This document shows, piece after piece, positions 4,436-23,125 of a DNA stretch of 32,810 bases. A model generated the notes under the pieces. That model was not told where the DNA came from and did not search any database. It was given only the letters and a program-made list of their open reading frames with translations. The DNA is from Bacillota bacterium (lineage in GTDB: Bacteria > Bacillota > Clostridia > Lachnospirales > Lachnospiraceae), in assembly GCA_029224465.1 (NCBI GenBank), contig JAQXUQ010000029.1, positions 1 through 32,810 of the forward strand, given 5' to 3'. Both the position numbers and the translations under genes were made by a program. Position 1 is the stretch's first letter; each line of letters begins with the position of its first letter.

Positions 4436-6418
4436 ATGTGCGGAATCTGCGGATACATTTCGAAAAGGACAATTTCACAGGAACAGCTTACGCGGATGAA
4501 CGACACGATGATCCGGAGAGGGCCGAATGACGCCGGCGCGGAAGTTTTTGCGGCTGCCGGCGGATATACGGCGGGACTCGCGCAGAGAAGACTTTCGATC
4601 CTCGATCTTTCACCCGCGGGGCATCAGCCGATGCATTCTGCAGGCGGAGAAGTCACGATCGTCTATAACGGGGAAATCTACAATTATCAGGAAATCCGCA
4701 GGCAGCTGCCGGATTATCCGTTCCGCTCGAACTGCGATACCGAGGTGATCCTCGCGGCGTACCTTGCCTGGGGCATCGACTGCGTCCGCCGTTTCAACGG
4801 CATGTTCGCGTTCGCGCTTTACGATAAAAGAAGCGGCGAGCTCTTCCTTGCAAGAGACCGCATGGGTGTAAAGCCGCTGTATTACTGGCTCGAGGACGCG
4901 GCGGGCGAAAACCGGGTTGGCGGGAACGCGGCAGGCAGCAGCGCATCGGGCGAAGATGCGGCGCAGCACCCGTTCGGAACGGCCGGCAGGACCGGAATTG
5001 TTTTTGCTTCCGAACTGAAACCCATCATGGCCTGCCCCGGCTTTGAGCGTGCAATACGAGGCGATGTTCTTGCGCGTTATCTTTCGCAGGAATATATCGC
5101 GGGTCCGGAGACGGTTTTCAAGGATGTGTACAAGCTGGAGCCGGGAACGATTCTCCGCTTTAAAGACGGAGTCCTTGCGAAGACCGTCTACTGGAATGTA
5201 TTCGATGTCTACCGCCGTATGCAGGAGAGTCCGGTAACGGATTACATGGAAGCGCGGGAAGAGCTGAAAAAGCTGCTGCAGCTTTCGGTCCGGAGAAGAC
5301 TGATTGCTGATGTGCCGCTCGGGTGCTTTCTCTCCGGAGGTTATGACTCCTCGCTCGTCTGCGCGCTTGCGCAGGAGGAACTCGGCGCGGTGCCTTTAAA
5401 GACGTTCTCGATCGGCTTCGAAGACCCTGCGTTTGACGAGTCGCCGTATGCGGAAGCCGTTGCCCGGCACATAGGGTGCGATCATACGTCGCTTCGGATT
5501 TCCGAAAAAGATATGCTGGATCTGGTGTCCGACCTGCCGCTCCACTTTGATGAGCCGATGGCGGATTCGTCCGAAATTCCGACGATGCTCGTTTCGGCGC
5601 TTGCAAAACAAAAGGTAAGCGTCGCGCTTTCCGGCGACGCGGGCGATGAGTTTTTCTGCGGTTACAATATCTACGAGAAGGTCGAACAGGCCCGGAAGCT
5701 CCGGCTTCTCGGCGCGGCAGCGCACGGCATCGGGCAGCTCCGTATCGGGGGGAAGCTTTTAGAAGACCGCTATCCGTTCCACCTCCGGACAATTTCGCGC
5801 AATACGGACCCGAAGACATGGACGCAGTTCGGCGAGGGAAAGAGCGGCGCTCTCGCAAAGCGTCTTGTTAAGGGAGCGGGGCTTCCTGTCAATTATCCGA
5901 TGGAGGATCAGATCCCTTCGAAGAACTGGCAGGTGCGGCGGATGCTGCTGGATATGGCGACCTATCTTCCGGACGATATCCTCGTCAAAGTCGACCGCGC
6001 CGGTATGAAATACTCCCTTGAAAACCGGTGTCCGCTGCTCGATAAAGATGTGATGGAGTATTCGTTCCGGATCGATCATTCATTTAAATATCACAAGGGA
6101 GTCAGGAAATATATCCTCAAGGATATTGTTTATGACTATATTCCGAAGGCACTGATGGACCGCCCGAAGAAGGGCTTCTCGGTCCCTTTGTCCGACTGGC
6201 TGCGGGGACCGCTCCGCGGGCAGCTTCTGGATTACGCGGACCGGGATTTCCTGCTCCGGCAGGGACTCTTTGCGCCGGAGGAGCTGGAACCGGTGCTTTC
6301 CGGATTTCTGCAGACCGGCGACGCCGGCAGCGGAACCGGAGCAAATTATTCGGGAATTCTCTGGAGCTTTTTTGTTTTTCAGCAGTGGTATGACTGCTGC
6401 ATCGGGAGCAATACATGA
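4436..6418 (+). CDS. asnB: Asparagine synthase-type glutamine amidotransferase
   Basis: This is a 660-residue AsnB-family protein. Starting at 4436 places the nucleophile Cys at position 2 (MCGICGYI), as class II glutamine amidotransferases require after Met removal. AGGA at 4425-4428 is well spaced for this start. The glutaminase domain shows RRGPND (27-32) and YNGEIYN (77-83). The synthetase domain has the PP-loop SGGYDSS (300-306) and ends in a typical GFSVPLSDWL block. Residues about 153-187 are a Gly/Ala/Ser-rich insertion just before the strand IVFASELKP. Such proteins in polysaccharide loci are known or suspected to amidate sugar carboxylates (for example uronamides) rather than free Asp. 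It follows the ATP-grasp gene and overlaps the next gene by ATGA. Confidence 0.88.
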   Translation: MCGICGYISKRTISQEQLTRMNDTMIRRGPNDAGAEVFAAAGGYTAGLAQRRLSILDLSPAGHQPMHSAGGEVTIVYNGEIYNYQEIRRQLPDYPFRSNCDTEVILAAYLAWGIDCVRRFNGMFAFALYDKRSGELFLARDRMGVKPLYYWLEDAAGENRVGGNAAGSSASGEDAAQHPFGTAGRTGIVFASELKPIMACPGFERAIRGDVLARYLSQEYIAGPETVFKDVYKLEPGTILRFKDGVLAKTVYWNVFDVYRRMQESPVTDYMEAREELKKLLQLSVRRRLIADVPLGCFLSGGYDSSLVCALAQEELGAVPLKTFSIGFEDPAFDESPYAEAVARHIGCDHTSLRISEKDMLDLVSDLPLHFDEPMADSSEIPTMLVSALAKQKVSVALSGDAGDEFFCGYNIYEKVEQARKLRLLGAAAHGIGQLRIGGKLLEDRYPFHLRTISRNTDPKTWTQFGEGKSGALAKRLVKGAGLPVNYPMEDQIPSKNWQVRRMLLDMATYLPDDILVKVDRAGMKYSLENRCPLLDKDVMEYSFRIDHSFKYHKGVRKYILKDIVYDYIPKALMDRPKKGFSVPLSDWLRGPLRGQLLDYADRDFLLRQGLFAPEELEPVLSGFLQTGDAGSGTGANYSGILWSFFVFQQWYDCCIGSNT

Positions 6419-8553
6419 TTATCATCCGCATGTCCGGCGGCCTCGGGAATCAGATGTTTCAGTACGCTTTGTATTTGAAGCTGGTTTCGCTGGGGCGGGA
6501 GGTCTGTTTTGACGACACAACCGAATATACGACCGTGACGGACGACGGACGGGTCAGAGAGCGGCGCCCGAAGATGCTCGGGGTGTTCGGGATAGACGTT
6601 CCGAGGGCACGGCAGGAAGATCTGATCCGCATGACGGACAGCGACATGCGCCTTGCTTCGCGTATCCGCAGGAAAATCACGGGGCGCAGGTCGAAGCTCC
6701 TGCACGATCATGATTTTCACTTTGATCCGGCGTTTCTGCGCGTTGAAGACGGGTATTTTGCCGGGTGCTTTCAGAGCCCTCTGTATTTCGCGGGCGTTGA
6801 AGAGAAGGTGCGCCGGGCTTTTACGTTTCCGGAGAATATTCTGGAAGGGCAGGAGCACGCACAGGACGTGCGCGGAAAGATACTGGAGGCGTCCGGCGTC
6901 AGTGCTTCGATTCACCTTCGCTTCGGAGATTATCTTGACAATCAGAAGCTGTACGGCGGCATCTGCACGGACGCGTATTATGACGCCGCCGTGCGGTATC
7001 TGACGGAACGGTGCAAGGGCATCCGCTTCTTCGTCTTCTCGAATGATGAGACGCGCGCGCGCGAATGGATCGGCAGGCGGGAGAATCCGGGCGTGTTTAC
7101 GTATGCGAGCGTTTCGGATGAGGATCATGGCTATATAGATCTGTATCTGATGAGCCTTTGCCGGCATCATATTATTGCGAACTCCAGTTTTTCGTGGTGG
7201 GGCGCATATGTCGCCCGGCAGGCGGCAGCGCCGGACGACTCACAATATGGCGCCCACCATGCGTCAGCGGTGGACACTAAGGGAATCACGATCGCCCCGT
7301 CCCTCTGGGTCAACACCGAAGACGGCAGCGGCCTTTATAAAAGTGACATTTACACAGATGATATGGTGCGCATCCGTCCGGACGGCGTAATCGCAAAGGG
7401 CGAAGGCGCAGTGCAGCCGCTGGTTTCGGTCATTGTCGCCGCTTACAATGTGGAACGTTATCTTTCTGCGGCACTGGAGAGCGTCCTTGCACAGACCTAC
7501 AGAAATCTTGAGATTCTGACAGTCGATGACGGCTCCACGGATAAAACGCCGGACATCTGCGACGCGTACGCCCGGAAAGACTCGAGAATCCGCGTCATCC
7601 ACAAGGAGAACGGCGGCCTTTCGGACGCCAGAAACGCGGCCCTTCAGATCGCTTCCGGCGATTATATTGCGTATCTTGACGGAGATGACAGGATGCAGCC
7701 GTGCATGATCGAAGCGATGGTGCGCGCCTGCCTTCTGACAGACGCGCCGGTTGCCGCGGTCAAGTACAGGGCGGTCCGCGAGGGCGCGGCGAAGACGCCT
7801 CCGGATACTGCATGCACCGGGCAGCCGGCTGAGCCGGATCAAGCGGCACCGGGCGCGCGCAGACCGGAGAACCCGGGATCAGCCGCAGCGGTACCGGACC
7901 TTCGCGAAGCGAAAATTCTGACACAGGATGAAGCGCTGGACAACTGGATCCGGAACGGTCTGCACGGAAACGAACGCAAATATATCCTTTACAATTCCGT
8001 CTGGAGCAAGCTTTTCCGGAAGGATGTGGCGGAATGTGTCCTTTTCCCGAAAGGGGAAAACAGCGAAGATATCCCATACACCACACGGACCCTTCTGAAA
8101 GCGGACAAGGTCGTCCTGATTCCGCAGCCGTATTATCTCTACCTGCAGGGCCGCAGCGGCAGCATTATGAATGAAAAGACGGGAGAACGGCGGCTTGGCG
8201 ACGAGCTGCGCCACTGGCAGGAACAGATCCTTCTGCTTACGGAAGCCGGCAAGCAGAAGGCCGCGGCCGGCGCGAAAGCCTGCCTGCATCTTCGTTACAT
8301 GCAGTACGATCTGGAATTCCGGGGCAGTATGGAGACGGCGCTCTATTCCGGAAAGATTGAACAATGGATGCGCCGAAACAGGAAGGAAATTCTTGCGGAC
8401 GCGCGCAGGGCGGACTGTGTCGGCAAAAGGGAAAGACTGCGGCTGCAGCTGTTCCTTTTCAGCCCTTCGCTGTATGAAAAAGTACTGAACTTTTATGGAA
8501 AAGCCGCCGCGAAGCGCCGCGGCAGAACGGAAGCGCAGAATGGCAGAATATAA
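6415..8553 (+). CDS. Two-domain glycosyltransferase: GT11 fucosyltransferase fused to GT2
   Basis: This 712-residue protein joins two complete glycosyltransferases in one frame. Residues 1 to about 315 are GT11 (alpha-1,2-fucosyltransferase-like): SGGLGNQMFQYA at the start, HLRFGDY (167-173, GDP-sugar binding) and NSSFSWWGA (256-264). Residues from about 335 are a GT-A family GT2 domain: SVIVAAYN, VDDGSTD, then LDGDD (421-425) as the DxD metal site, and later VWSKLFRKD. A Pro/Ala/Gly-rich insertion fills about 457-495, and a shorter Ala/Asp-rich stretch follows the GT11 core (268-288). No stop or frameshift interrupts the joint. The protein would add fucose (or another GDP-deoxyhexose) and a second sugar. 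ATGA overlap with asnB; GGGAG precedes the start. Confidence 0.87.
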   Translation: MIIIRMSGGLGNQMFQYALYLKLVSLGREVCFDDTTEYTTVTDDGRVRERRPKMLGVFGIDVPRARQEDLIRMTDSDMRLASRIRRKITGRRSKLLHDHDFHFDPAFLRVEDGYFAGCFQSPLYFAGVEEKVRRAFTFPENILEGQEHAQDVRGKILEASGVSASIHLRFGDYLDNQKLYGGICTDAYYDAAVRYLTERCKGIRFFVFSNDETRAREWIGRRENPGVFTYASVSDEDHGYIDLYLMSLCRHHIIANSSFSWWGAYVARQAAAPDDSQYGAHHASAVDTKGITIAPSLWVNTEDGSGLYKSDIYTDDMVRIRPDGVIAKGEGAVQPLVSVIVAAYNVERYLSAALESVLAQTYRNLEILTVDDGSTDKTPDICDAYARKDSRIRVIHKENGGLSDARNAALQIASGDYIAYLDGDDRMQPCMIEAMVRACLLTDAPVAAVKYRAVREGAAKTPPDTACTGQPAEPDQAAPGARRPENPGSAAAVPDLREAKILTQDEALDNWIRNGLHGNERKYILYNSVWSKLFRKDVAECVLFPKGENSEDIPYTTRTLLKADKVVLIPQPYYLYLQGRSGSIMNEKTGERRLGDELRHWQEQILLLTEAGKQKAAAGAKACLHLRYMQYDLEFRGSMETALYSGKIEQWMRRNRKEILADARRADCVGKRERLRLQLFLFSPSLYEKVLNFYGKAAAKRRGRTEAQNGRI

Positions 8554-9289
8554 AAACGGGAAGCTGCAGCTTCCGCAGGTAACGCTGGCCGCGATGACGA
8601 GCGTGAACATATCCGCAACGATCAAGGCTCTGCAGTACAGCATGCGCGGGATCGATTTTGGCAAAGTGGTGCTGATTACGCACAGGAAGCCTTTGTTTTT
8701 ACCGGAAGGAATCACCTACCGGCATATTGAACGGCTGGACAGTATCGACAAGTTCAACTATGACATGGTCTATGAGCTTTACAAATATGTGGACACGGAC
8801 TTCGTGCTGACGGTGCACGCCGACGGTTTCGTCGTCAACCCGGACAAGTGGCAGGATGCGTTCCTTGACTATGACTATATCGGTTCTCCGTGGCCGGATC
8901 CGCACGATGACTTCACGTACAGAGATATCCACGGAGAGCTCATCCGTGTCGGCAACAGTGTCGGCATCCGCTCGAAGAGGCTTCTGGAATTTCCTGCCCT
9001 TGCGGGCATCCCGTTTGAGAAAGATCACGGATGGTTCAATGAGGACGGCTTTATCTGCGTGAAAAACAGACACCTGTTCACAGCTGCGGGCATGACTTAC
9101 GCACCGCTTTCTCTGGCTGTCTACTTCGGACATGAGCATATGATTCCCGAAGAGGAAGGCATCCGGCCGTTCCTGTTTCACAAGTGGGAAGGCACCAATG
9201 CGCAATACCCGAGATTCCGCATGGACTCGGACGGACTGACCGGCAGAATCCGCGGCAAACTCCGCAGAATGAAGAAAGGCGGAAGATAG
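8540..9289 (+). CDS. DUF5672 family protein, probable glycosyltransferase
   Basis: This 249-residue protein shows the DUF5672 pattern: TLAAMTSVN near the start, TVHADGF (91-97), DYDYIGSPWP (110-119) and a VGNSVGIRS block (137-145) that resembles the VGNGGFSLRS signature. The family sits in glycan loci and is presumed to be a GT-A-like glycosyltransferase; its reaction is not established. The start at 8540 overlaps the GT11-GT2 gene by 14 nt and has a GGAAG-type site. An earlier in-frame ATG at 8495 lies deeper in the upstream gene and has no ribosome binding site. The stop TAG directly abuts the next ATG. No membrane segment is seen. Confidence 0.72.
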   Translation: MAEYKNGKLQLPQVTLAAMTSVNISATIKALQYSMRGIDFGKVVLITHRKPLFLPEGITYRHIERLDSIDKFNYDMVYELYKYVDTDFVLTVHADGFVVNPDKWQDAFLDYDYIGSPWPDPHDDFTYRDIHGELIRVGNSVGIRSKRLLEFPALAGIPFEKDHGWFNEDGFICVKNRHLFTAAGMTYAPLSLAVYFGHEHMIPEEEGIRPFLFHKWEGTNAQYPRFRMDSDGLTGRIRGKLRRMKKGGR

Positions 9290-10207
9290 ATGGTTTATGA
9301 TTGCTTTCAGTTTTTCAATGAGCTGGACATATTAAAGCTCCGGCTGCACGTGCTGAGCGATGTTGTGGACCGCTTTGTCATCAGCGAATCGACCGTGACG
9401 TTTTCGGGGGACCCGAAGCCGCTGTTTTATGAGGAAAACAAAGAGCAGTTCCTTGACTTTCAGGACCGCATTATTCACGTTGTGGTTGACGACACGCCGA
9501 TGGACTGCGATGCCTACGCGCGGGACCATCACCAGAAGTGCGCCGTCGCGCGGGGGCTCAAAGACGCGAAGGACGACGACATTGTCATCTTTTCGGACGT
9601 TGATGAAATCCCGAATCCGGAGATGCTGGAAAGACTGCTCCCGGATGTGGAGCCCGGAAAGATTTATATGCCGGCGCAGCGGCTGTTTTACTGCTATCTG
9701 AATTTGGAAGACATCTCGGGAAATAACCTTTCGGTAACAGGAGAGTTTCCGGGCGTTACCCGCAGGATGTGGCTTGGCACGAAGATCTGCAGAAAGAGCC
9801 TTCTTCGTCAGTACACGACCGAGGAACTGCGGGACAAGGCAAGACAGGATATCGGTGTGCGCGTACCGGACGGCGGCTGGCATTTTTCCTATATGGGCGG
9901 CGGCAAAAACGAGTCGGTCGAAGAACGCGTGCGGTACAAGATAAAGAGCGCCGCGCATCAGAATTATAATAACAGGAGGACCCTGTTTGAAGTCGGCGCG
10001 AGACTGCGCCGCAAAGAGGATATCCTCGGACGCAGCGCGCAGATGGTCGTCACGAAGATCGATGATACGTATCCTTTATATCTTCGGGAGCACCTTCCGG
10101 AATATGATTATCTGCTGTACAAAGAGCCGCACTGGTACAGAAAAGCGATGGATCGTGCCACGGAGGCGGCGCTTTCCGCAAGGGACCGGCTCCGCGGAAG
10201 AAAATGA
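9290..10207 (+). CDS. Glycosyltransferase family 17 protein
   Basis: This 305-residue protein matches GT17, the family of the eukaryotic beta-1,4-mannosyl-glycoprotein GlcNAc-transferase (MGAT3). The N-terminus MVYDCFQFFNELDILKLRL and the block RFVISES are hallmarks, and the DxD-type metal site is SDVDEIP (102-108). GGWHFSYMGG appears further on, as in other bacterial members. It is plausibly a GlcNAc or other HexNAc transferase acting on the repeat unit. The ATG follows the previous TAG immediately, with GGCGGAAG as ribosome binding site. A gap of 39 bp separates it from the next gene. Confidence 0.83.
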   Translation: MVYDCFQFFNELDILKLRLHVLSDVVDRFVISESTVTFSGDPKPLFYEENKEQFLDFQDRIIHVVVDDTPMDCDAYARDHHQKCAVARGLKDAKDDDIVIFSDVDEIPNPEMLERLLPDVEPGKIYMPAQRLFYCYLNLEDISGNNLSVTGEFPGVTRRMWLGTKICRKSLLRQYTTEELRDKARQDIGVRVPDGGWHFSYMGGGKNESVEERVRYKIKSAAHQNYNNRRTLFEVGARLRRKEDILGRSAQMVVTKIDDTYPLYLREHLPEYDYLLYKEPHWYRKAMDRATEAALSARDRLRGRK

Positions 10208-10246: not shown

Positions 10247-11224
10247 ATGATCGGAACGGAATTTCTGCAGGGACAGGGGCTGGGGAACCGCCTGTTCGCC
10301 TATATTACGGCGCGCAGCATCGCGGAAGACAAAGGCTGCGTTTTCGGGACAGCCGGACAGGAGCTTTTACAGGCGGATTTTCTGGAGCTCGATAAAGGCG
10401 CGAAGATTACGGACACCGCCTCGTTTACGCGCTATGATGAGAAAGAGGAGCGGCTGTATCTGCCGACTTCCGCGCACGATATGGTGCACGGCATCTTTGT
10501 CGCCGGCGCCGACGGGAATCTTCGCGCGATAAAGGACAACACGCTGATTTACGGAAATCTGCAGGACGAGTCTTATTTCGCGGCGTATAAAGAAGAGATC
10601 CGCTCCTGGCTTCGGGTAAAACAGGACTATGATTCCTACGGGTATACGCAGGACAACCTGTGTGTCCTGAATATGCGGGGCGGCGAGTACACAGACAAGC
10701 CCGAGCTGTTCCTCCGGAGGAAATACTGGACAGACGCGATGGCGCGCATGAGAGAACGCGTGCCGGACATGCGGTTCGTGATCGTTACGGACGATGTCCC
10801 TGCGGCAAAGCGCCTGTTTCCGAAGCTCGAAGCGCTTCACAAAAGTCCCGCGTTTGACTATGTCACCGTGAAAAACGCGCGGTACCTGATTGTATCGAAC
10901 TCCTCGTTCGCGTTCTTTCCGGCGTATACTTCCGAAACGGTCCGTTTTGTCATCGCGCCGAAGTACTGGGCCCGCCACAACGTATCCGGCGGCTTCTGGG
11001 CATCCCCCCAGAACATCTATGACGAATTCAACTATCTTGACAGAAAGGGACAGCTTTTCACCGCAGAGCAGTGCAGGGAAGAACTCGCTGAATTTTCCTT
11101 GCCTTTGACAAAGCCGTGGAAAGAGGGAGACCCCGATGTACGGGCGGTGGAAGCGCGCAACAGGCGGCGCTATCTGATTGACCGCGTGCAGCTGAAAATC
11201 CGGAGAAAGCTTGGAATCCTGTAA
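10247..11224 (+). CDS. Divergent GT11-like (fucosyltransferase-fold) glycosyltransferase
   Basis: The 325-residue protein looks like a distant GT11 member. GQGLGNRLFAYITA (9-22) corresponds to the GGLGNQLFQYA opening. NMRGGEY (142-148) stands where HxRxGDY is expected. SNSSFAFFPA (217-226) matches the ANSSFSWWGA block. The changes H to N and D to E in the central motif suggest altered donor or acceptor use. A strong AAGGAG site at 10235-10240 is 6 nt before the ATG. It could equally be annotated as a protein of unknown function with this fold. The call rests on three motifs in the right order and spacing. Confidence 0.62.
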   Translation: MIGTEFLQGQGLGNRLFAYITARSIAEDKGCVFGTAGQELLQADFLELDKGAKITDTASFTRYDEKEERLYLPTSAHDMVHGIFVAGADGNLRAIKDNTLIYGNLQDESYFAAYKEEIRSWLRVKQDYDSYGYTQDNLCVLNMRGGEYTDKPELFLRRKYWTDAMARMRERVPDMRFVIVTDDVPAAKRLFPKLEALHKSPAFDYVTVKNARYLIVSNSSFAFFPAYTSETVRFVIAPKYWARHNVSGGFWASPQNIYDEFNYLDRKGQLFTAEQCREELAEFSLPLTKPWKEGDPDVRAVEARNRRRYLIDRVQLKIRRKLGIL

Positions 11225-11226
11225 TT

Positions 11227-13404
11227 ATGTATCAGTACCTGAAACGACCTAAAGTATCCATCTGCATACCGGCGTATGAAAATTCGGAGGGGATTACAAG
11301 GCTCCTCGACTCGATTTTAACGCAGCTGTTCACGGACTACGAGATCATCATCACCGATGACTCGAAGACGGACCGCGTCGAAGCGGCAGTGCGGGCAGCG
11401 GAGGACGGTTTTGTCGCATACGGCTTTTCGGGCATCGATACCGGCTCCAGAATCCGCTATTACAGGAACAAGGAAAGGAAGGGAGCGGTCGCGAACTGGA
11501 ACGAGGCGGTTTCCCGCGCGCGCGGCGAGTACGTCAAGATCATGCATCATGACGACTGGTTTACCGATGAGCGCTGTCTTGCTCTGTTTGTGGAAATGCT
11601 TGATCAGCATCCGGAAGCGGACATGGCTTTTTCCGGCAGCTATCAGGTCGAGCCCGGCATGAGCGGGGAAGAGCTTGAAAATGCGCGCAGGAAGCGCCGT
11701 TTCGGACTTTTCGTCAAACCGAGGACAGAGTCGGAAAAGCGGCATGCCGTGAAATCAAAGTTCGCACGCGGCATCAGCGAAAAAGACGAGGCACTTCTTC
11801 GGGCAGATTTTAGAAACCTCTATCTCGGCAATACGATCGGGGCGCCCTCGGCGGTGATTGTCCGGAAAAGTGCGCTGGATCAATGGAAAATCACCTATGA
11901 CACAAATTTGACCTGGCTGGTCGACGAAGAGTATTATCTTCAGATTCTGCAAAACAATCCACACTACGCCTTCACGGCCAAGCCGCTGATTTCGATCGGA
12001 CTTTCCTACAGTCAGCTAACCGAGAAGGTGGAATCGGACGAGCTGCTTCAGCGGAAGGAATACACATACGTCTACTGCAAATATAACCTGCAGAAGGCAG
12101 ATGCGCGTTTCGCGCGCTTTCTTTCGGATGTCCTTGCCAAAAACCACGCGCAGAAAAAGGAAGCCTGCGGCGTCCCGGGCATTACGCCGCAAATGTACAG
12201 AGAAAGTGTCCGGAAGATGCGGAAGGCAATGCGTGACAGAAGGCTCGATACGCTGGATTACCTGACAGACAAGGCGCAGGGGAAGCTGGATGGCAAGTTC
12301 GGAAAAGCGGCCAATGTCCTATTTTATATGGGACTCTTGATTGAGATCGCGATCGTCATCATCGATAAGAGCGACCTGACGAATCCGTTTACCGGAAGAT
12401 TGTTTCAGCTGACCTTTGTTCTGTTCCTGTTTCGCATGCTGAGCGCGAAATGGAACCGGAAAGAGAGAACCGTGATTTTCGCGGCGCTCGTTCTCGGGGT
12501 GATCGTTTACAAAGTCAGCGGGCGCAATGACCTCATCCGGTATACGGTCTTTATGGCGGCCGGCCTGGCTGCCGGGCCGAAGAAGGTCTGTAAAACGACA
12601 TTTTTTACTTCGATCGCCGGCTGCCTTCTGCTGGTGTTCCTGTCTGTGACAGGTATCTTCGGAACATTGAAGCTCACGCAGGATTTCGGGCACGGTGTCG
12701 AGACGAGATGGTGCCTCGGACTGGGGCACCCGAACGCGCTGCACTGCATGGCAATGATGCTCGTGCTCTTTGCGCTGTACCTGTATTATGATCAGATAAA
12801 GCCTTGGATGCTGGCAGCGCTTGCCGCGGGGGACCTCGGACTGTATTTGCTGACAAAATCGAACACGGCGTTTGCCGTCACGCTGGCGGCGATCCTGCTG
12901 ACAGCGCTGATGCGGAGGGGCAGCAGGCTGCAGAAGTCTTCTACAGTCTATGTCCTCGGAGAAGCGGTGGTCGCGGCAGGGCTTGTTTTTTCCCTGCTGG
13001 CGGCAGTCATCAATCCTGCGGATGATCCCTCCCTGCGGATTCTGGACCACCTCCTCACGGGACGGATGGCTTCCCTGTGGGATACGACATTCTATGAAGG
13101 AACGCTGGGGACCTGGCATCTGTTTTCGGGCAGGGACTGCGGAGCGTATTTTGATCTCGGCTTTGTCCGTATCATTTACTGGTATGGAACCGTGGCGGGC
13201 GCTGTCATCCTCGCGCTGATCTTTGTCCTTCTGAAAAGAGCAAGGCAGGAGAGAAACGCGGCGCTTTTCATCCTGCTGGCTGCCTGCTGCATCTATACGG
13301 TACCGGAGGCGCATCTGGTTTCCCGGTACATTGCAAGAAATTACTGCCTGATGCCGGCTGCCATGACGCTGGCTTCCATGCTCGGTCGAAAGGAAACAAG
13401 ATGA
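11227..13404 (+). CDS. GT2 glycosyltransferase fused to Wzy-like polysaccharide polymerase
   Basis: This 725-residue protein has two parts. Residues 1 to about 300 are a GT2 domain (VSICIPAYENSEG, ITDDSKTD, metal site MHHDDWF at 106-112). Residues from about 365 to the end are a polytopic membrane domain with roughly ten hydrophobic helices. The membrane part carries O-antigen polymerase/ligase hallmarks common in Firmicutes: LGLGHPNALH (497-506), LTGRMASLW (610-618) and DLGFVRIIYWYG (643-654). It is the only polymerase candidate in the cluster, so this half most likely joins flipped repeat units outside the membrane while the GT2 half works in the cytosol. The reading frame is continuous. 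Its last codons overlap the next gene by ATGA. Confidence 0.83.
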   Translation: MYQYLKRPKVSICIPAYENSEGITRLLDSILTQLFTDYEIIITDDSKTDRVEAAVRAAEDGFVAYGFSGIDTGSRIRYYRNKERKGAVANWNEAVSRARGEYVKIMHHDDWFTDERCLALFVEMLDQHPEADMAFSGSYQVEPGMSGEELENARRKRRFGLFVKPRTESEKRHAVKSKFARGISEKDEALLRADFRNLYLGNTIGAPSAVIVRKSALDQWKITYDTNLTWLVDEEYYLQILQNNPHYAFTAKPLISIGLSYSQLTEKVESDELLQRKEYTYVYCKYNLQKADARFARFLSDVLAKNHAQKKEACGVPGITPQMYRESVRKMRKAMRDRRLDTLDYLTDKAQGKLDGKFGKAANVLFYMGLLIEIAIVIIDKSDLTNPFTGRLFQLTFVLFLFRMLSAKWNRKERTVIFAALVLGVIVYKVSGRNDLIRYTVFMAAGLAAGPKKVCKTTFFTSIAGCLLLVFLSVTGIFGTLKLTQDFGHGVETRWCLGLGHPNALHCMAMMLVLFALYLYYDQIKPWMLAALAAGDLGLYLLTKSNTAFAVTLAAILLTALMRRGSRLQKSSTVYVLGEAVVAAGLVFSLLAAVINPADDPSLRILDHLLTGRMASLWDTTFYEGTLGTWHLFSGRDCGAYFDLGFVRIIYWYGTVAGAVILALIFVLLKRARQERNAALFILLAACCIYTVPEAHLVSRYIARNYCLMPAAMTLASMLGRKETR

Positions 13405-14783
13405 ATCATCGAAACCGAATCATCCAGACATACGGTCTGTGGTTTATCGATATGCTCTGTATCGCGCTGTCCTATTTCATCGCGACGCAGCTGCGCTTTG
13501 CGAGCGCGCGGGACTACGGGAGCAAAACACTCCACTACATGGTCCTTGTCATCTTCCTTTTGTTCTGTACGGTATACAGCTATTTCGTGGACTGGAACAG
13601 ATCGCTCTTAAAGCGCGGCGTCTTTCAGGAATTCATGGCGGTCCTGAAATTCAACGCGGTCATGATCATCATTTCGATGACGTTTGTGTTTTTCGCGCAG
13701 TGGGCGTACATTCTCTCGAGAAGCGTGATCCTGAATTTTGCGTGGATCAATCTCGTCTTAATGCTTGCCGCGCACCAGATCTATAAGATTTTCCTGCACA
13801 GGCTGTTCAGCTCCGCGTCCCTTGTGACCAAGGTCCTGCTGGTCGCCGGAGCGGACAGCATGGACGCAGCCGCGCAGCGCCTTGGGAGAACCATGGGAGA
13901 GGGGTATCAGATTGTCGGGACGGTAACAGTCGCTGATCTTAAAGAAAACACACTGCGTAAGATTACCGAAAAGATGACGCAGATACCGTTCGATGAAGTG
14001 CTCATCTGTACGCCGCAGGCGTCGCTGGAGGAGACCGCGCCACTAATCGAGGGCTTCGAGGAGATGGGCGTTGTCTGCCACCTCGCGCTGGATCTTCCCG
14101 AGTACGGCGATGCCATCACGAGTGTCGGCAAGTTCGGAGACTATACAGTACTGACCTACTCCAGATTCCGTTCAAGCTACAAGAAGCTTCTGATCAAGCG
14201 TGCTTTTGACATACTGGGAAGTCTGATCGGCCTTGCGCTGACCGGCGTCATCACGATTTTTCTCGCGCCTGCGATCAAGCTGGATTCGAAAGGACCTGTC
14301 TTTTTCTCGCAGGTCCGCGTCGGCAAAAACGGCAGGCGTTTTAAAATCTACAAGTTCCGTTCGATGTATCAGGACGCCGAGGCAAGGCTCAAAGACCTGC
14401 AGTCGCAGAATGAAGTCGAAGGCCTGATGTTCAAGATGGAAAATGATCCCCGGGTCACGAAAGTCGGACGCTTTATCCGCAAAACAAGTCTCGACGAGTT
14501 TCCGCAGTTTTTCAATATCTTAAAAGGCGACATGAGCCTTGTCGGCACGAGACCGCCGACCGAGCGGGAGTTCGAACAGTACGACGAGCACTACAGAAGA
14601 CGACTGTCCATGACGCCGGGACTGACCGGCCTCTGGCAGGTCAGCGGCCGCAGCGACATCGACAACTTCGACGATGTCGTAAAACTCGACCTGCAATATA
14701 TTGACAACTGGTCTTTGTCGCTCGATTTCAAGATCCTGCTGCAGACCGTGGGCGTAGTCCTGTTCCACAAAGGAGCAAAGTAA
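13401..14783 (+). CDS. Polyprenyl-phosphate sugar-1-phosphate transferase (initiating enzyme)
   Basis: This 460-residue protein has the WbaP/CpsE-type layout. It has four N-terminal membrane helices (about 10-130), a Rossmann-like CoA-binding domain (about 143-245), one re-entrant or membrane helix (about 270-292) and a C-terminal bacterial sugar transferase domain. Family motifs are KRAFDILGS (266-274), KIYKFRSM (315-322), the catalytic Asp-Glu in SLDEFPQ (363-369), VGTRPP and PGLTGLWQ (406-413). It transfers a hexose-1-phosphate from a UDP-sugar to undecaprenyl phosphate, the first step of repeat-unit assembly. AAAGGAAA precedes the start. The stop is directly followed by the next ATG. Confidence 0.95.
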   Translation: MNHRNRIIQTYGLWFIDMLCIALSYFIATQLRFASARDYGSKTLHYMVLVIFLLFCTVYSYFVDWNRSLLKRGVFQEFMAVLKFNAVMIIISMTFVFFAQWAYILSRSVILNFAWINLVLMLAAHQIYKIFLHRLFSSASLVTKVLLVAGADSMDAAAQRLGRTMGEGYQIVGTVTVADLKENTLRKITEKMTQIPFDEVLICTPQASLEETAPLIEGFEEMGVVCHLALDLPEYGDAITSVGKFGDYTVLTYSRFRSSYKKLLIKRAFDILGSLIGLALTGVITIFLAPAIKLDSKGPVFFSQVRVGKNGRRFKIYKFRSMYQDAEARLKDLQSQNEVEGLMFKMENDPRVTKVGRFIRKTSLDEFPQFFNILKGDMSLVGTRPPTEREFEQYDEHYRRRLSMTPGLTGLWQVSGRSDIDNFDDVVKLDLQYIDNWSLSLDFKILLQTVGVVLFHKGAK

Positions 14784-15965
14784 ATGGTTCTGGTTATAGA
14801 CACTTTCAAGCTGGTCAAAGGCGCCGGCAAGAGTATCGGTATTTACAATCTGACAAAGAGTCTGGTTACATATCTGGGCGCCGAAAATGTGCGCCGCGGC
14901 ATGCCGCACAGAATTATTGTACTCGGCAATCCGAAGAATCAGAAGGATATGGAGCGGGACGGCACGGAATTTGTGATCGTTCCCGGAAATCCGCTGGACC
15001 GGAAAACCTTTGTGATCTGGGAACTGTTCCGTGTCAAAAAGTACGCGCAGCGCTATCATGCGGACAGGATACTGTTCCCGAGAGGATACCGGCCGCTTGT
15101 TTACCGCGGCAAAGATACGATTATCGTGCATGATCTGATCCCGTTCTGGTACAACGAGAACTGCCCGGGATATCTGGGACGCGTCGAAAATGCCTATATC
15201 ATGAACCGTCTGAAAGCTTCGATCCGCCATGCGGACCGCGTCATTACGATCTCGGACTATTCGAGGCAGGAAATTGACAAACTGGTCCCCGGCAGCTACG
15301 GCAAGGTCAAAGAGATCTACAACGGACTCAATGATATCGAGCCCTGGGACCCGGGCGTTCCTGTCGGCAGTGCGGAGGGAGACACGAAGGGGAATCCGGA
15401 GACAAGCGCGCCGGTCGAAAAAGAAGATTATATCGTGGCAGTTACGACGAAGATGCCGCACAAGAACGCGAAGGGTATCGCTGCCGCCTACGAAAGATAC
15501 TGCAGCGTCTGCAGGGAGCGCAAAACAGAGCCGCTGCCGCTTCGGATCATCGGCATTCCGGATATCGGAGCGTTTATCCGTGACGGCGTGATCAGCAGCG
15601 AAAACGCGCGGCGCGTGACTTGTTTTTTCTATATTGAAAAATATTCCGATATGTGCAGGATGATTGCGAAGGCCCGGATGTTCCTGTTCCTGTCGCTTGC
15701 GGAGGGCTTCGGCTTTCCGCCTCTCGAAGCCATGCAGATGGGAACGCCGGTCGTTTCATCGGACCGGACGGCGCTCCGGGAAGTCGTTGCGGACGCCGGG
15801 CTTCTTGTGGATCCGGACAAACCGCAGGAGGCCGCGGAAGCGCTGCTCCGCCTTCAAGGTGATCCCGCGCTATGCAAAGACCTGATCGCAAAAGGCTACC
15901 GTAATATCCGCCGCTTTTCCTGGAAAACCAGGACACAGGAATACTGGGACGAACTTTTTCAGTGA
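14784..15965 (+). CDS. Glycosyltransferase family 4
   Basis: This 393-residue GT4 protein begins DTFKLVKGAGKSIGIYNL, typical of bacterial mannosyl/rhamnosyltransferase-like GT4 members. It has HDLIPFWY (116-123), ITISDYSR (154-161) and the EX7E motif EGFGFPPLE (307-315) followed by GTPVVSSD. A Gly/Glu/Ser/Pro-rich stretch at about 190-213 interrupts the linker between the two Rossmann domains. AAAGGAG lies shortly before the ATG. It is encoded straight after the initiating transferase, so it may add an early sugar, but order in the operon does not prove order of action. Confidence 0.88.
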   Translation: MVLVIDTFKLVKGAGKSIGIYNLTKSLVTYLGAENVRRGMPHRIIVLGNPKNQKDMERDGTEFVIVPGNPLDRKTFVIWELFRVKKYAQRYHADRILFPRGYRPLVYRGKDTIIVHDLIPFWYNENCPGYLGRVENAYIMNRLKASIRHADRVITISDYSRQEIDKLVPGSYGKVKEIYNGLNDIEPWDPGVPVGSAEGDTKGNPETSAPVEKEDYIVAVTTKMPHKNAKGIAAAYERYCSVCRERKTEPLPLRIIGIPDIGAFIRDGVISSENARRVTCFFYIEKYSDMCRMIAKARMFLFLSLAEGFGFPPLEAMQMGTPVVSSDRTALREVVADAGLLVDPDKPQEAAEALLRLQGDPALCKDLIAKGYRNIRRFSWKTRTQEYWDELFQ

Positions 15966-20577: not shown

Positions 20578-22107
20578 ATGGGAAGAGTCAGACTGGCGGA
20601 AAAGAATATTGTCTTCGGTTACATCGGTCAGCTCGCAACAGCGCTGATCTCTTTTGTGCTGCGCACAATCTTCATCCAGAATCTTGCCGAACAGCTTCTG
20701 GGCGTCAACAGCCTGTACACGAATATCCTTTCCATCCTCTCGATGGCGGAGCTCGGGATCGGAACCGCCCTGAATTTCGCGCTCTACAGGCCGGTCGCGG
20801 AGCATGATCGTGAGAAGGTCAAGTCGTACATGCAGATGTACCGCAAGGCGTACTATGTCATCGCTCTTGTTGTCGCGGGCATCGGCCTTGCGATCGCGCC
20901 GTTCCTGCGGTATCTCATCAAGGACCCGGGACCGGTCACCGTACAGCAGATGACGCTGTATTACTTCATCTTCCTGTTCAATACGGTCAGCACGTACTTT
21001 GTTTCGTACAAGTATTCGCTTGTCAACGCGCAGCAGAAAAACTACATACAGACCAACATCAATACAGTCACCAAGATCATTACCGCGCTGCTGCAGATTC
21101 TGGTGGTCGTTTTCACGAAGAATTTCCTGCTGTTTCTGTTAACGGACGCACTGGTGCAGCTTCTGCAGAAAGTCTTTGTGAACTGGTATCTGAACCGGCT
21201 GTATCCTTTCCTTCTGGAGAAAAACATCACGCCGCTCTCCAGAGAAGAAAGCGATGAAGTCTGGCGCAAGACCAAAGCGCTCGTTCTTCATAAAGTCGGT
21301 GATGTCGCAAGACTTCAGACGGATTCGATCATCATTTCCTCGTTTATCGCGGTTGCCGTTTCGGGCATGGTCGACAACTACACGCTCGTCATCAATACGG
21401 TTTCGAACTTCGTGAACATCATATTCAATTCGGTGATTTCGGGGTTCGGGAACCTGATCGCAACCGAGTCAAAACAGCGCCAGTTTGAACTTTTCAAGGT
21501 CTACCGCTTTTTCGCAAGCTGGGTCTACGGCTTTGCGGCGACCGGCTTCTTCATCCTGCTGACACCGCTTATCCGGATCTGGTTAGGAGATGCCTGGGTG
21601 CTGCCGTCTTCGGCGGTTTACCTGATCCTGACCGACCTGTATTTCAAGGGAGACAGAATTGTTCTGTCCAACTTCAAAACCGCGGCCGGCGTTTTCGAAC
21701 AGGACAAATATCTCGCCCTGATTCAGGGCGCGGTGAATCTTGTCTTGTCGGTCTGGCTCGTGCAGAGGATCGGCCTTGCCGGCATCTATGTCGGCACCGT
21801 TGTTTCCGGCCTGATCGCCAATGTCACAAAGCCGGTGATTATCTATCATGTCTGTTTTGACCGCTCGCCGGCGTCGTATTTTGCGGATATGGCAAAATAC
21901 GTAGTGACCGTCGCGGTCATAACGATGGCAAGCCATTATATTACAGCGCCGCTTCTTGCAAGACCCGGCATTCTGCCTTTCCTTGTCTGTGTGGTCCTGA
22001 TCACGGTACTGTTCAACGCGGTCTTCATGCTGCTGTTCGGCAGGACACAGGAAATGCGCTATCTGAAGGGCCTTCTGAAGAACCGGCTCTCAAAGGGGGA
22101 GAACTGA
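20578..22107 (+). CDS. Wzx-type polysaccharide flippase
   Basis: This 509-residue polytopic membrane protein belongs to the MOP/polysaccharide transporter superfamily. The hydropathy pattern suggests about 12-14 membrane helices. The N-terminal amphipathic start RLAEKNIVFGYIGQ and the ELGIGTALNFALYRP block are typical of Firmicutes Wzx proteins. It moves the undecaprenyl-diphosphate-linked repeat unit to the outer membrane face for polymerisation. GGAGGT lies 4 nt before the ATG. With the polymerase domain and the initiating transferase it makes this a Wzx/Wzy-dependent locus. Confidence 0.92.
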   Translation: MGRVRLAEKNIVFGYIGQLATALISFVLRTIFIQNLAEQLLGVNSLYTNILSILSMAELGIGTALNFALYRPVAEHDREKVKSYMQMYRKAYYVIALVVAGIGLAIAPFLRYLIKDPGPVTVQQMTLYYFIFLFNTVSTYFVSYKYSLVNAQQKNYIQTNINTVTKIITALLQILVVVFTKNFLLFLLTDALVQLLQKVFVNWYLNRLYPFLLEKNITPLSREESDEVWRKTKALVLHKVGDVARLQTDSIIISSFIAVAVSGMVDNYTLVINTVSNFVNIIFNSVISGFGNLIATESKQRQFELFKVYRFFASWVYGFAATGFFILLTPLIRIWLGDAWVLPSSAVYLILTDLYFKGDRIVLSNFKTAAGVFEQDKYLALIQGAVNLVLSVWLVQRIGLAGIYVGTVVSGLIANVTKPVIIYHVCFDRSPASYFADMAKYVVTVAVITMASHYITAPLLARPGILPFLVCVVLITVLFNAVFMLLFGRTQEMRYLKGLLKNRLSKGEN

Positions 22108-22108
22108 T

Positions 22109-23125
22109 ATGTATATTGACAAAGGACTGCTGGATCTTCTGTCGGACGAAGCGGCGCGCCAGCTCCTCGAACTGCCCCGGCAGGACGCGGCGGGAACGTT
22201 CAAACGTCTCGTGAAAAGGGCACTTGGCCGGCAGACGCCGAAGAAGGACGATCTGTTCTGGCCGGCGGGACTTCTGCTTCTGGGACTTTGGGAAGCCGGA
22301 CGCAGGGAAACTGTGGAAGCGTATATCCGCGCGTGGGCAGCAAAGGACGCGCCGGTAGCTTATGTCGACGACGCGCTGGCGGGATATGTGATCCTGTGCC
22401 TGTATGAACAGACAAAGGATCCGCAGTGCAGGGAGGCTGCGGACCGGATCTTCCGGTTCCTGGATGATACGCCGAAAGATCAGAGCGGAGCGATTATCTA
22501 CAACCCCGGAAGAGGCAACGGGTATATCTTTGCGGACGGCGCCGGCATGACCGCCCTGTTTCTTTCAAAGTACGGAAAAGTGTTCGGAAACGCAGAAGCT
22601 TCGGCGCTCGCAAGGCGCCAGATCGGCAGCTTTTTAAATTACGGGATGGATTACCTGTCTTCGCTGCCCTATCACGGATATGACCGTCAGAGCGGCGTCA
22701 AATACGGCATTATCGGCTGGGGACGCGCAACAGGCTGGCTCCTGATGGGGATGAGCGGCATCATCTGCGACACAGGGGACAAAGAAGTGCTTGCGGCTTT
22801 CCGGGAAATCCTGGACGCGGCGTTTACGCACCAGCGGAGGGATGGCTTGTTCTCCTGGCAGCTGGAAGCCGTGGACGGCCCGGCGGACACTTCCGCAACC
22901 GCGATGATCCTCTGGTCGGCCGCCCGCGTGATGAAGGAAGGCTGGCTCAAAGATCTGGACAGGAACCTTCTTGCCGACGGCGCGGACGGACTGCGCCGGC
23001 AGATCAACGGCGGAAGAATTTACGGCGCGTCCGCGGAATGCATTGATTTCGCGCAGTACGTGCAGCAGTACGGGTGCTATCCCTGGGGACAGGGAGCGGC
23101 GCTGTCGTTTTTCGGGGTGTTCTGA
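22109..23125 (+). CDS. GH88/GH105-like (unsaturated uronyl hydrolase-type) protein
   Basis: This 338-residue, mostly helical protein resembles the six-hairpin glycoside hydrolases of GH88/GH105. Supporting blocks are YVDDALAGYV (85-94), FADGAGM (141-147, with the Asp where family members carry a catalytic acid), GIIGWGRATGW (200-210), DTSATAMILW (260-269) and a C-terminal YPWGQGA (324-330). Members normally cleave unsaturated uronic acids made by polysaccharide lyases. There is no signal peptide, so it would be cytosolic. A ribosome binding site, AAGGGGGAG, is well placed. Its location between the flippase and a fucosyltransferase gene is unusual. It may be a trimming, recycling or non-catalytic protein. 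Confidence 0.75.
   Translation: MYIDKGLLDLLSDEAARQLLELPRQDAAGTFKRLVKRALGRQTPKKDDLFWPAGLLLLGLWEAGRRETVEAYIRAWAAKDAPVAYVDDALAGYVILCLYEQTKDPQCREAADRIFRFLDDTPKDQSGAIIYNPGRGNGYIFADGAGMTALFLSKYGKVFGNAEASALARRQIGSFLNYGMDYLSSLPYHGYDRQSGVKYGIIGWGRATGWLLMGMSGIICDTGDKEVLAAFREILDAAFTHQRRDGLFSWQLEAVDGPADTSATAMILWSAARVMKEGWLKDLDRNLLADGADGLRRQINGGRIYGASAECIDFAQYVQQYGCYPWGQGAALSFFGVF

Follow-up and report, generated by a model that had tools for sequence, protein, structure and literature searches.

One reading frame for a GT2 domain and a membrane domain

We analyzed a stretch of 32,810 bases that makes up the entire contig JAQXUQ010000029.1 (assembly GCA_029224465.1) of a Bacillota bacterium from the Lachnospiraceae. 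This stretch is called the window below, and the polysaccharide cluster that it carries is known only within its limits. At positions 11227 to 13404, a single gene encodes a glycosyltransferase family 2 (GT2) domain followed by a membrane domain that we assign to the Wzy-type polymerases. The parts of this gene are as follows.

11227..13404, + strand: GT2-Wzy fusion gene, 725 codons plus stop, an open frame with an AlphaFold2 model and with the same two-domain order in 12 other genomes of the genus
11227..12186, + strand: GT2 domain, residues 1 to 320, by PF00535 and a 12-row alignment (A2)
12187..12306, + strand: linker, residues 321 to 360, the opening part of a continuous predicted helix (321 to 381) leading into transmembrane helix 1
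12307..13401, + strand: putative Wzy-type polymerase domain, residues 361 to 725, by family alignment A1, hhalign comparison to Wzy_C proteins, and predicted topology
13009..13158, + strand: predicted long outer loop, residues 595 to 644, with the invariant R613 and D643, by family alignment and predicted topology

The frame runs on the forward strand from an ATG start through 725 codons with zero internal stops. It begins 2 bases past the stop of the upstream gene, and its 3' end overlaps the next gene by the four bases ATGA. A first-pass annotation, made from the letters of the window, had described it as one 725-codon frame with a complete GT2 domain and a polytopic domain. This description held, as the frame is open, the N-terminal part matches PF00535, and the membrane part aligns in a family of 27 rows. 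The same annotation had named a frameshift or sequencing error among the findings that would undo the fusion, and the genome is indeed a draft in 34 contigs, in which a sequencing or assembly error could join two genes. However, the same single frame was found at 91% identity in RUG304, an uncultured Lachnospiraceae genome, and again in 11 more genomes. Both halves are under purifying selection, with ratios of nonsynonymous to synonymous substitution rates (dN/dS) against RUG304 of 0.093 for the GT2 half and 0.105 for the Wzy half, and the linker, taken as residues 301 to 360, gave 0.235. Because the relatives share the frame and dN/dS is far below 1 in both halves and in the linker, we rejected an artificial joining of two genes, to which we leave hardly any probability. 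We also looked for a separate start of the Wzy half: none of the six in-frame start codons at 12193 to 12400 has a Shine-Dalgarno-like stretch, which, with the simple pattern used, is weak evidence. The single-chain GT2-polymerase fusion is confirmed as genuine.

The GT2 domain matched the Pfam model Glycos_transf_2 (PF00535) at residues 11 to 134 with 82.4 bits, well above the cut-off of 23.3, and residues D44, D45, D109, D110, W230, and D233 are invariant in alignment A2. To describe the membrane half, we aligned it with 26 relatives at 23 to 46% identity, giving the 27 rows of family A1. The blocks LGLGHPNALH and LTGRMASLW, quoted by the first-pass annotation as typical of polymerases, recur in this alignment, and its 10 invariant positions include R438, N503 (in GHPN), R613 (in TGR), D643 (in FDLG), and E694. 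By sequence, no solved chain matched the membrane half, the best hit being unrelated (E value, 0.4). Compared by hhalign with 20 Wzy_C (PF04932) proteins of the class, the family profile matched over its whole length (386 columns) with a probability of 94.6% and an E value of 1.5e-8, while two control profiles (flippase and DUF6056) reached 0.1 to 0.2% in the same comparison. In this profile alignment, whose local confidence is low at that point, D643 stood opposite the histidine of the Wzy_C HN motif. Excerpts of PMC10920833, which describes the CAZy polymerase families GT122 to GT135, report an Asp or Glu in place of the ligase histidine for most polymerase families of the ligase-like clan. 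The profile comparison thus points to membership of the membrane half in the Wzy_C/O-antigen ligase superfamily.

The AlphaFold2 model of the whole protein, built on an 84-row alignment, had a mean predicted local distance difference test score (pLDDT) of 93.3 and a predicted template modeling score (pTM) of 0.81. It predicts alternating strands and helices in the N-terminal half, an unbroken helix from residue 321 to 381, and then helices for about 12 membrane spans, some of them short; hydropathy alone gave 9 membrane helices. Since the GT2 domain must be cytosolic and the number of spans is even, both ends of the protein are predicted to lie inside and loop 595 to 644 outside. The topology rests on these two premises; loop charge counts were ambiguous and are not counted as support. 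It places R438, R613, D643, and E694 on the outer side. Excerpts of the same source describe many transmembrane helices and a long outer loop near the C terminus for clans GT-C1 and GT-C2 (PMC10920833), and the predicted helix count, the predicted long loop, and the conserved arginines and acidic residues on the predicted outer face all fit the Wzy_C/O-antigen ligase superfamily. In the same terms, the predicted topology, with the GT2 domain inside and the polymerase loop outside, agrees with the earlier proposal that a cytosolic sugar transfer is tethered to extracellular polymerization.

Gene neighborhood and distribution of the fusion

The fusion gene lies among other genes for polysaccharide synthesis, of which the following matter here.

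8495..9289, + strand: DUF5672 gene (PF18922), which co-occurs with the GT2
9290..10207, + strand: GT17-like gene (PF04724), which co-occurs with the GT2
10247..11224, + strand: GT11-like gene directly upstream of the fusion gene (PF01531 match below cut-off)
13401..14783, + strand: priming phosphoglycosyl transferase of the WcaJ/WbaP type (PF02397; TIGR03025 above cut-off), in ATGA overlap with the fusion gene
20578..22107, + strand: putative Wzx-type flippase (MatE and NF041503 WZX_like, both below cut-off; 13 membrane-like segments)

A priming transferase and a flippase-like gene, the latter by matches below cut-off, thus accompany the fusion, as in a Wzx/Wzy-dependent pathway. More than three membrane-like segments were found in just 3 of the 26 main frames of the window, namely, the fusion (11), the flippase (13), and the priming transferase (7). 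By this measure, the fusion is the only polymerase candidate of the cluster within the window, as had been stated from the first inspection. A second, different polymerase-like protein is encoded on another contig (C6) of the same genome. The cluster also holds a second two-domain protein, a GT11 joined to a GT2 in one 712-codon frame at 6415 to 8553; this GT11-GT2 frame is common to many loci of the genus and stands directly upstream of the stand-alone wzy in genome G267. Just past the flippase, still inside the cluster, lies a gene for a GH88-type hydrolase (22109 to 23125).

We searched related genomes for the two-domain architecture, a check proposed at the outset, and found it in 12 other genomes of the genus. 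In total, the polymerase domain was matched strongly in 25 of the 62 genus genomes; 13 of these, including the window, carry the fusion and 12 a stand-alone polymerase. One of the 13 frames is truncated where its contig ends, and the set includes two pairs of near copies. DUF5672, GT17, and GT11-like genes lie upstream in all 13 fused loci and adjoin the fusion in each of them but L097, in which they are separated from it by about 1.5 kb. The stand-alone loci have many gene neighbors in common with the fused ones, and 5 of the 12 contain a separate GT2 gene of another clade. When the 12 stretches upstream of the stand-alone wzy genes were read by eye, in frame and with stops kept, no relic of a lost GT2 was seen.

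In a wider sample, drawn from the family, 29 of 397 genomes matched the polymerase domain at an E value of 1e-8, and the only GT2-Wzy fusions among them are that of the window and that of G233, a genome of another genus, whose 654-residue protein lacks the linker. In the samples of the order (392 genomes) and the class (391 genomes), both of which overlap the family sample, the frame of the window is the sole strongly matching one longer than 700 residues. Wzy proteins had been called normally stand-alone, and these samples bear this out for the relatives of the window polymerase, which mostly stand alone. Weaker matches in the order sample revealed fusions of other kinds, of 735 (GT10), 815 (GT4), and 1,211 (GT26-GT4) residues. 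Overall, polymerases with a C-terminal GT4-type domain were found at L058:8717-10972 (by likeness), L059:8576-10843 (by Pfam), and L145:2354-4786, and polymerase-type domains with a C-terminal GT10 at L066:9141-11336 (by Pfam) and with C-terminal GT26 and GT4 at L149:1579-5211. In L066, L145, and L149, the membrane domain is only distantly related.

In 8 of the 28 family loci that we fetched, the gene immediately before wzy encodes an orthologous GT2, in L040 as a GT2-DUF6056 protein, and the same neighbor pair occurs in named records, including that of Kineothrix alysoides (L122). For this reason, the GT2/wzy neighbor pair is probably older than the fusion.

Apparently separate histories of the GT2 and Wzy-type halves

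We next asked which genes the GT2 accompanies. The comparison covered 47 loci, each spanning at most about 20 kb and some cut by contig ends; L055, L056, and L062, which are too short or cut upstream, were left out. The GT2, fused or free, was present in 28 of the 33 loci having both DUF5672 and GT17 and in none of the 14 lacking one or both. Taken gene by gene, and with kinship ignored, the association was strongest with DUF5672 (P = 3e-8), followed by GT17 (P = 1e-6) and the GT11-like gene (P = 0.001), and with 12 other genes, including the flippase, the priming transferase, and AsnB, the P values ranged from 0.2 to 1. In two genomes of the genus whose wzy locus is without the GT2, G415 and G423, a different contig holds a GT2 of the other clade, and there too DUF5672 and GT17 are its neighbors. 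Across the family, and even on other contigs, DUF5672 and GT17 thus keep company with the GT2. The DUF5672 product may be a transferase of the same branch.

Pairwise distances over 14 loci gave a similar picture. Distances between the GT2 domains were correlated with those of DUF5672, GT17, and the GT11-like gene (rho of 0.74, 0.80, and 0.75), while their correlation with their own Wzy half was only 0.29, and 0.06 within the 10 fused loci. The Wzy half follows no gene closely, its correlations with GT17, the GT11-like gene, DUF5672, the priming transferase, and the flippase lying between 0.42 and 0.53. On the GT2 tree, the 14 fused GT2 domains stand together (support 76/85; 74% of bootstrap trees), whereas the Wzy tree scatters the fused proteins. 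On the Wzy tree, the approximately unbiased (AU) test rejected a grouping of all 13 fused polymerase domains from the genus into one clade (P = 0.0015); grouping the Wzy half of G233 with the genus gave a P value of 0.48. In mutual tests on 12 fused loci, each half rejected the tree of the other (P = 0.012 and 0.0016). Losses of the GT2 part and its exchange by recombination both fit these results.

On the grounds of co-occurrence, pairwise distances, and the contrast between the GT2 and Wzy trees, we read the GT2 as a transferase for the repeat unit, grouped with its upstream neighbors and tied to a polymerase of separate history. A more specific version, in which the GT2 installs the very sugar that the Wzy half uses as acceptor and the junction is a recombination seam across which the GT2 is exchanged together with the DUF5672-GT17-GT11-like cassette, apart from the Wzy half, appears doubtful to us.

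Several observations weigh against reading the protein as such a transferase tied to a Wzy-type polymerase. Five of the 33 loci with DUF5672 and GT17 are without the GT2, and the GT4 genes at 14784 and 15972 are also associated with it (P = 0.003 and 0.03, kinship ignored). After correction for kinship, the co-occurrence comes down to 4 supported pairs, 3.2 of them concordant on average and 0 opposed, too few for significance. The Wzy half has a rho of 0.53 with GT17, comparable to its values with the priming transferase (0.44) and the flippase (0.46), and this over 14 loci only. Most other gene pairs of the cluster also reject each other's trees, so that discordance is not specific to the halves of the fusion. 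Finally, the window protein alone matches no Pfam polymerase model, PF04932 included, and its membrane half scanned alone gave no Pfam or NCBIfam match above cut-off. PF04932 is matched by just 7 of the 27 members of family A1 (best E value, 1.2e-4).

Proposed function and alternative explanations

A related design is known from WadA, the bifunctional O-antigen ligase (GT25 plus GT121) of Brucella and related Rhizobiales (PMC10920833, in excerpt). According to the part of PMC9938171 available, the cytosolic transferase of WadA attaches the final sugar of the core, and this sugar is then used by the ligase half of the protein. Like WadA, the window fusion would combine a cytosolic transferase and a 12-helix domain of this superfamily in one chain. 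Unlike WadA, whose transferase is a GT25 (a family with no match in the N-terminal domain of the window protein at E values up to 1 in the Pfam scan) and whose ligase acts on lipid A-core, it joins a GT2 to a polymerase-type domain and has genes for a flippase and a priming transferase in its neighborhood; it also belongs to the Bacillota rather than the Rhizobiales, and relatives with separate genes are common. Stand-alone Lachnospiraceae polymerases of family A1 resemble its membrane domain in identity and conserved blocks, but they are without the GT2 domain, and an orthologous GT2, if present, is another gene. The GT4, GT10, and GT26-GT4 fusions described above likewise place a glycosyltransferase and a polymerase-type domain in one chain, but there the transferase is C-terminal and of other families. 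For the terminal transferase PssJ of Rhizobium, the portion of PMC7589315 at hand describes contacts with other transferases and, with ambiguous results, with Wzx/Wzy proteins. No report of a GT2-Wzy polymerase fusion was found among the titles and abstract openings listed from one open-licence library, and in the main text of PMC10920833 the words "fused" and "fusion" do not occur (0 each) and "appended" occurs twice, both times about WadA. The design is thus already known from WadA, and the polymerase version with a GT2 appears to be new as far as the listings from that library go.

We consider it probable that the protein ties a glycosyltransferase of repeat-unit assembly to the polymerase acting on its product, as a polymerase counterpart of WadA in a pathway of the Wzx/Wzy type. 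Working in the cytosol together with the products of the DUF5672, GT17, and GT11-like genes, the N-terminal GT2 would extend the lipid-linked repeat unit by a sugar. A flippase such as that encoded at 20578 would then turn the unit over, and the C-terminal Wzy-type domain would link the flipped undecaprenyl diphosphate (undecaprenyl-PP) repeat units at the outer face, with a rigid helix holding the two domains together. The fusion probably arose in the Lachnospiraceae from the GT2-then-wzy neighbor pair that is common in the family. Its benefit would probably be local: with the transferase placed at the polymerase and the flippase, units carrying its sugar would be made at that site. On the model of WadA, the sugar of the GT2 may be the very acceptor for the polymerase half; if so, the protein would license its own substrate across the membrane. 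Alternatively, the GT2 may make a side branch.

To our knowledge, the matching of cytosolic repeat-unit assembly to polymerization outside is poorly understood, and the acceptor sugars of Wzy proteins are rarely known. Just one such polymerase has been characterized so far, according to excerpts of PMC10920833. A polymerase tied to one repeat-unit transferase gives a hint of the sugar that may be important for it, and a genus with both fused and split relatives offers a natural experiment on the effect of the tie. The tethering reading would also carry the design of WadA beyond ligases to polymerases, and into the Bacillota.

The fusion might alternatively serve membrane anchoring only, a soluble GT2 having joined the adjacent polytopic protein with no functional part for the polymerase. 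The orthologous GT2 is indeed found in frames of 786 to 819 residues directly before a stand-alone wzy in L040 (10321-12720), L112, L115 (3995-6355), L120, L123, and L125, and the second part of this frame is DUF6056 by Pfam in L040 and L115, the two that were scanned, which supports this explanation. The discordant histories of the two halves fit it as well. However, a GT4 (L059, L145), a GT10 (L066), and a GT26 plus GT4 (L149) are also fused, at the C terminus, to polymerase-type domains. Since other transferases share this arrangement, the polymerase is a repeated fusion partner, and we regard anchoring only as rather unlikely, and the tethering of a transferase to its polymerase as the better account.

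It had further been suggested that the GT2 is coupled to polymerization itself, setting chain length or pace without Wzz. The genome of the window, 96% complete, gave no Wzz match, as this would predict. In the 10 genomes checked, however, Wzz occurs in 3 of the 7 that carry the fusion and in 1 of the 3 that lack it, which gives the idea of length control without Wzz no support. A part for the GT2 in polymerization as such is not supported either, given the 12 congeners whose polymerase is without a GT2 domain, the way the GT2 follows DUF5672 and GT17, and its presence as a separate upstream gene in 8 of 28 loci. We judge such coupling improbable; a looser coupling, in which repeat units are handed to the polymerase, is possible. 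Cellulose, hyaluronan, and related processive synthases also carry a GT2 and a membrane domain in one chain, and the window protein shares this order of a GT2 followed by many transmembrane helices, as though the GT2 were served by its own membrane channel. Unlike those synthases, however, the window protein is without the QxxRW motif ([QR]xxRW was absent from all 14 fused proteins searched), its membrane half is homologous to stand-alone polymerases, and flippase-like and priming transferase genes stand in the cluster. The missing motif and the Wzy-type membrane half largely refute a processive synthase, which we hold to be very improbable.

The polymerase-like protein on contig C6 (L148:8042-9688), together with L146:1904-3919 and L147:1967-3823, forms a second polymerase-like family. 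L148 gave no Pfam match. By eye, the C terminus of this family looks like a soluble domain flanked by two membrane helices, the layout of chain-length co-polymerases. A polymerase carrying its own length regulator in the same chain would be worth attention.
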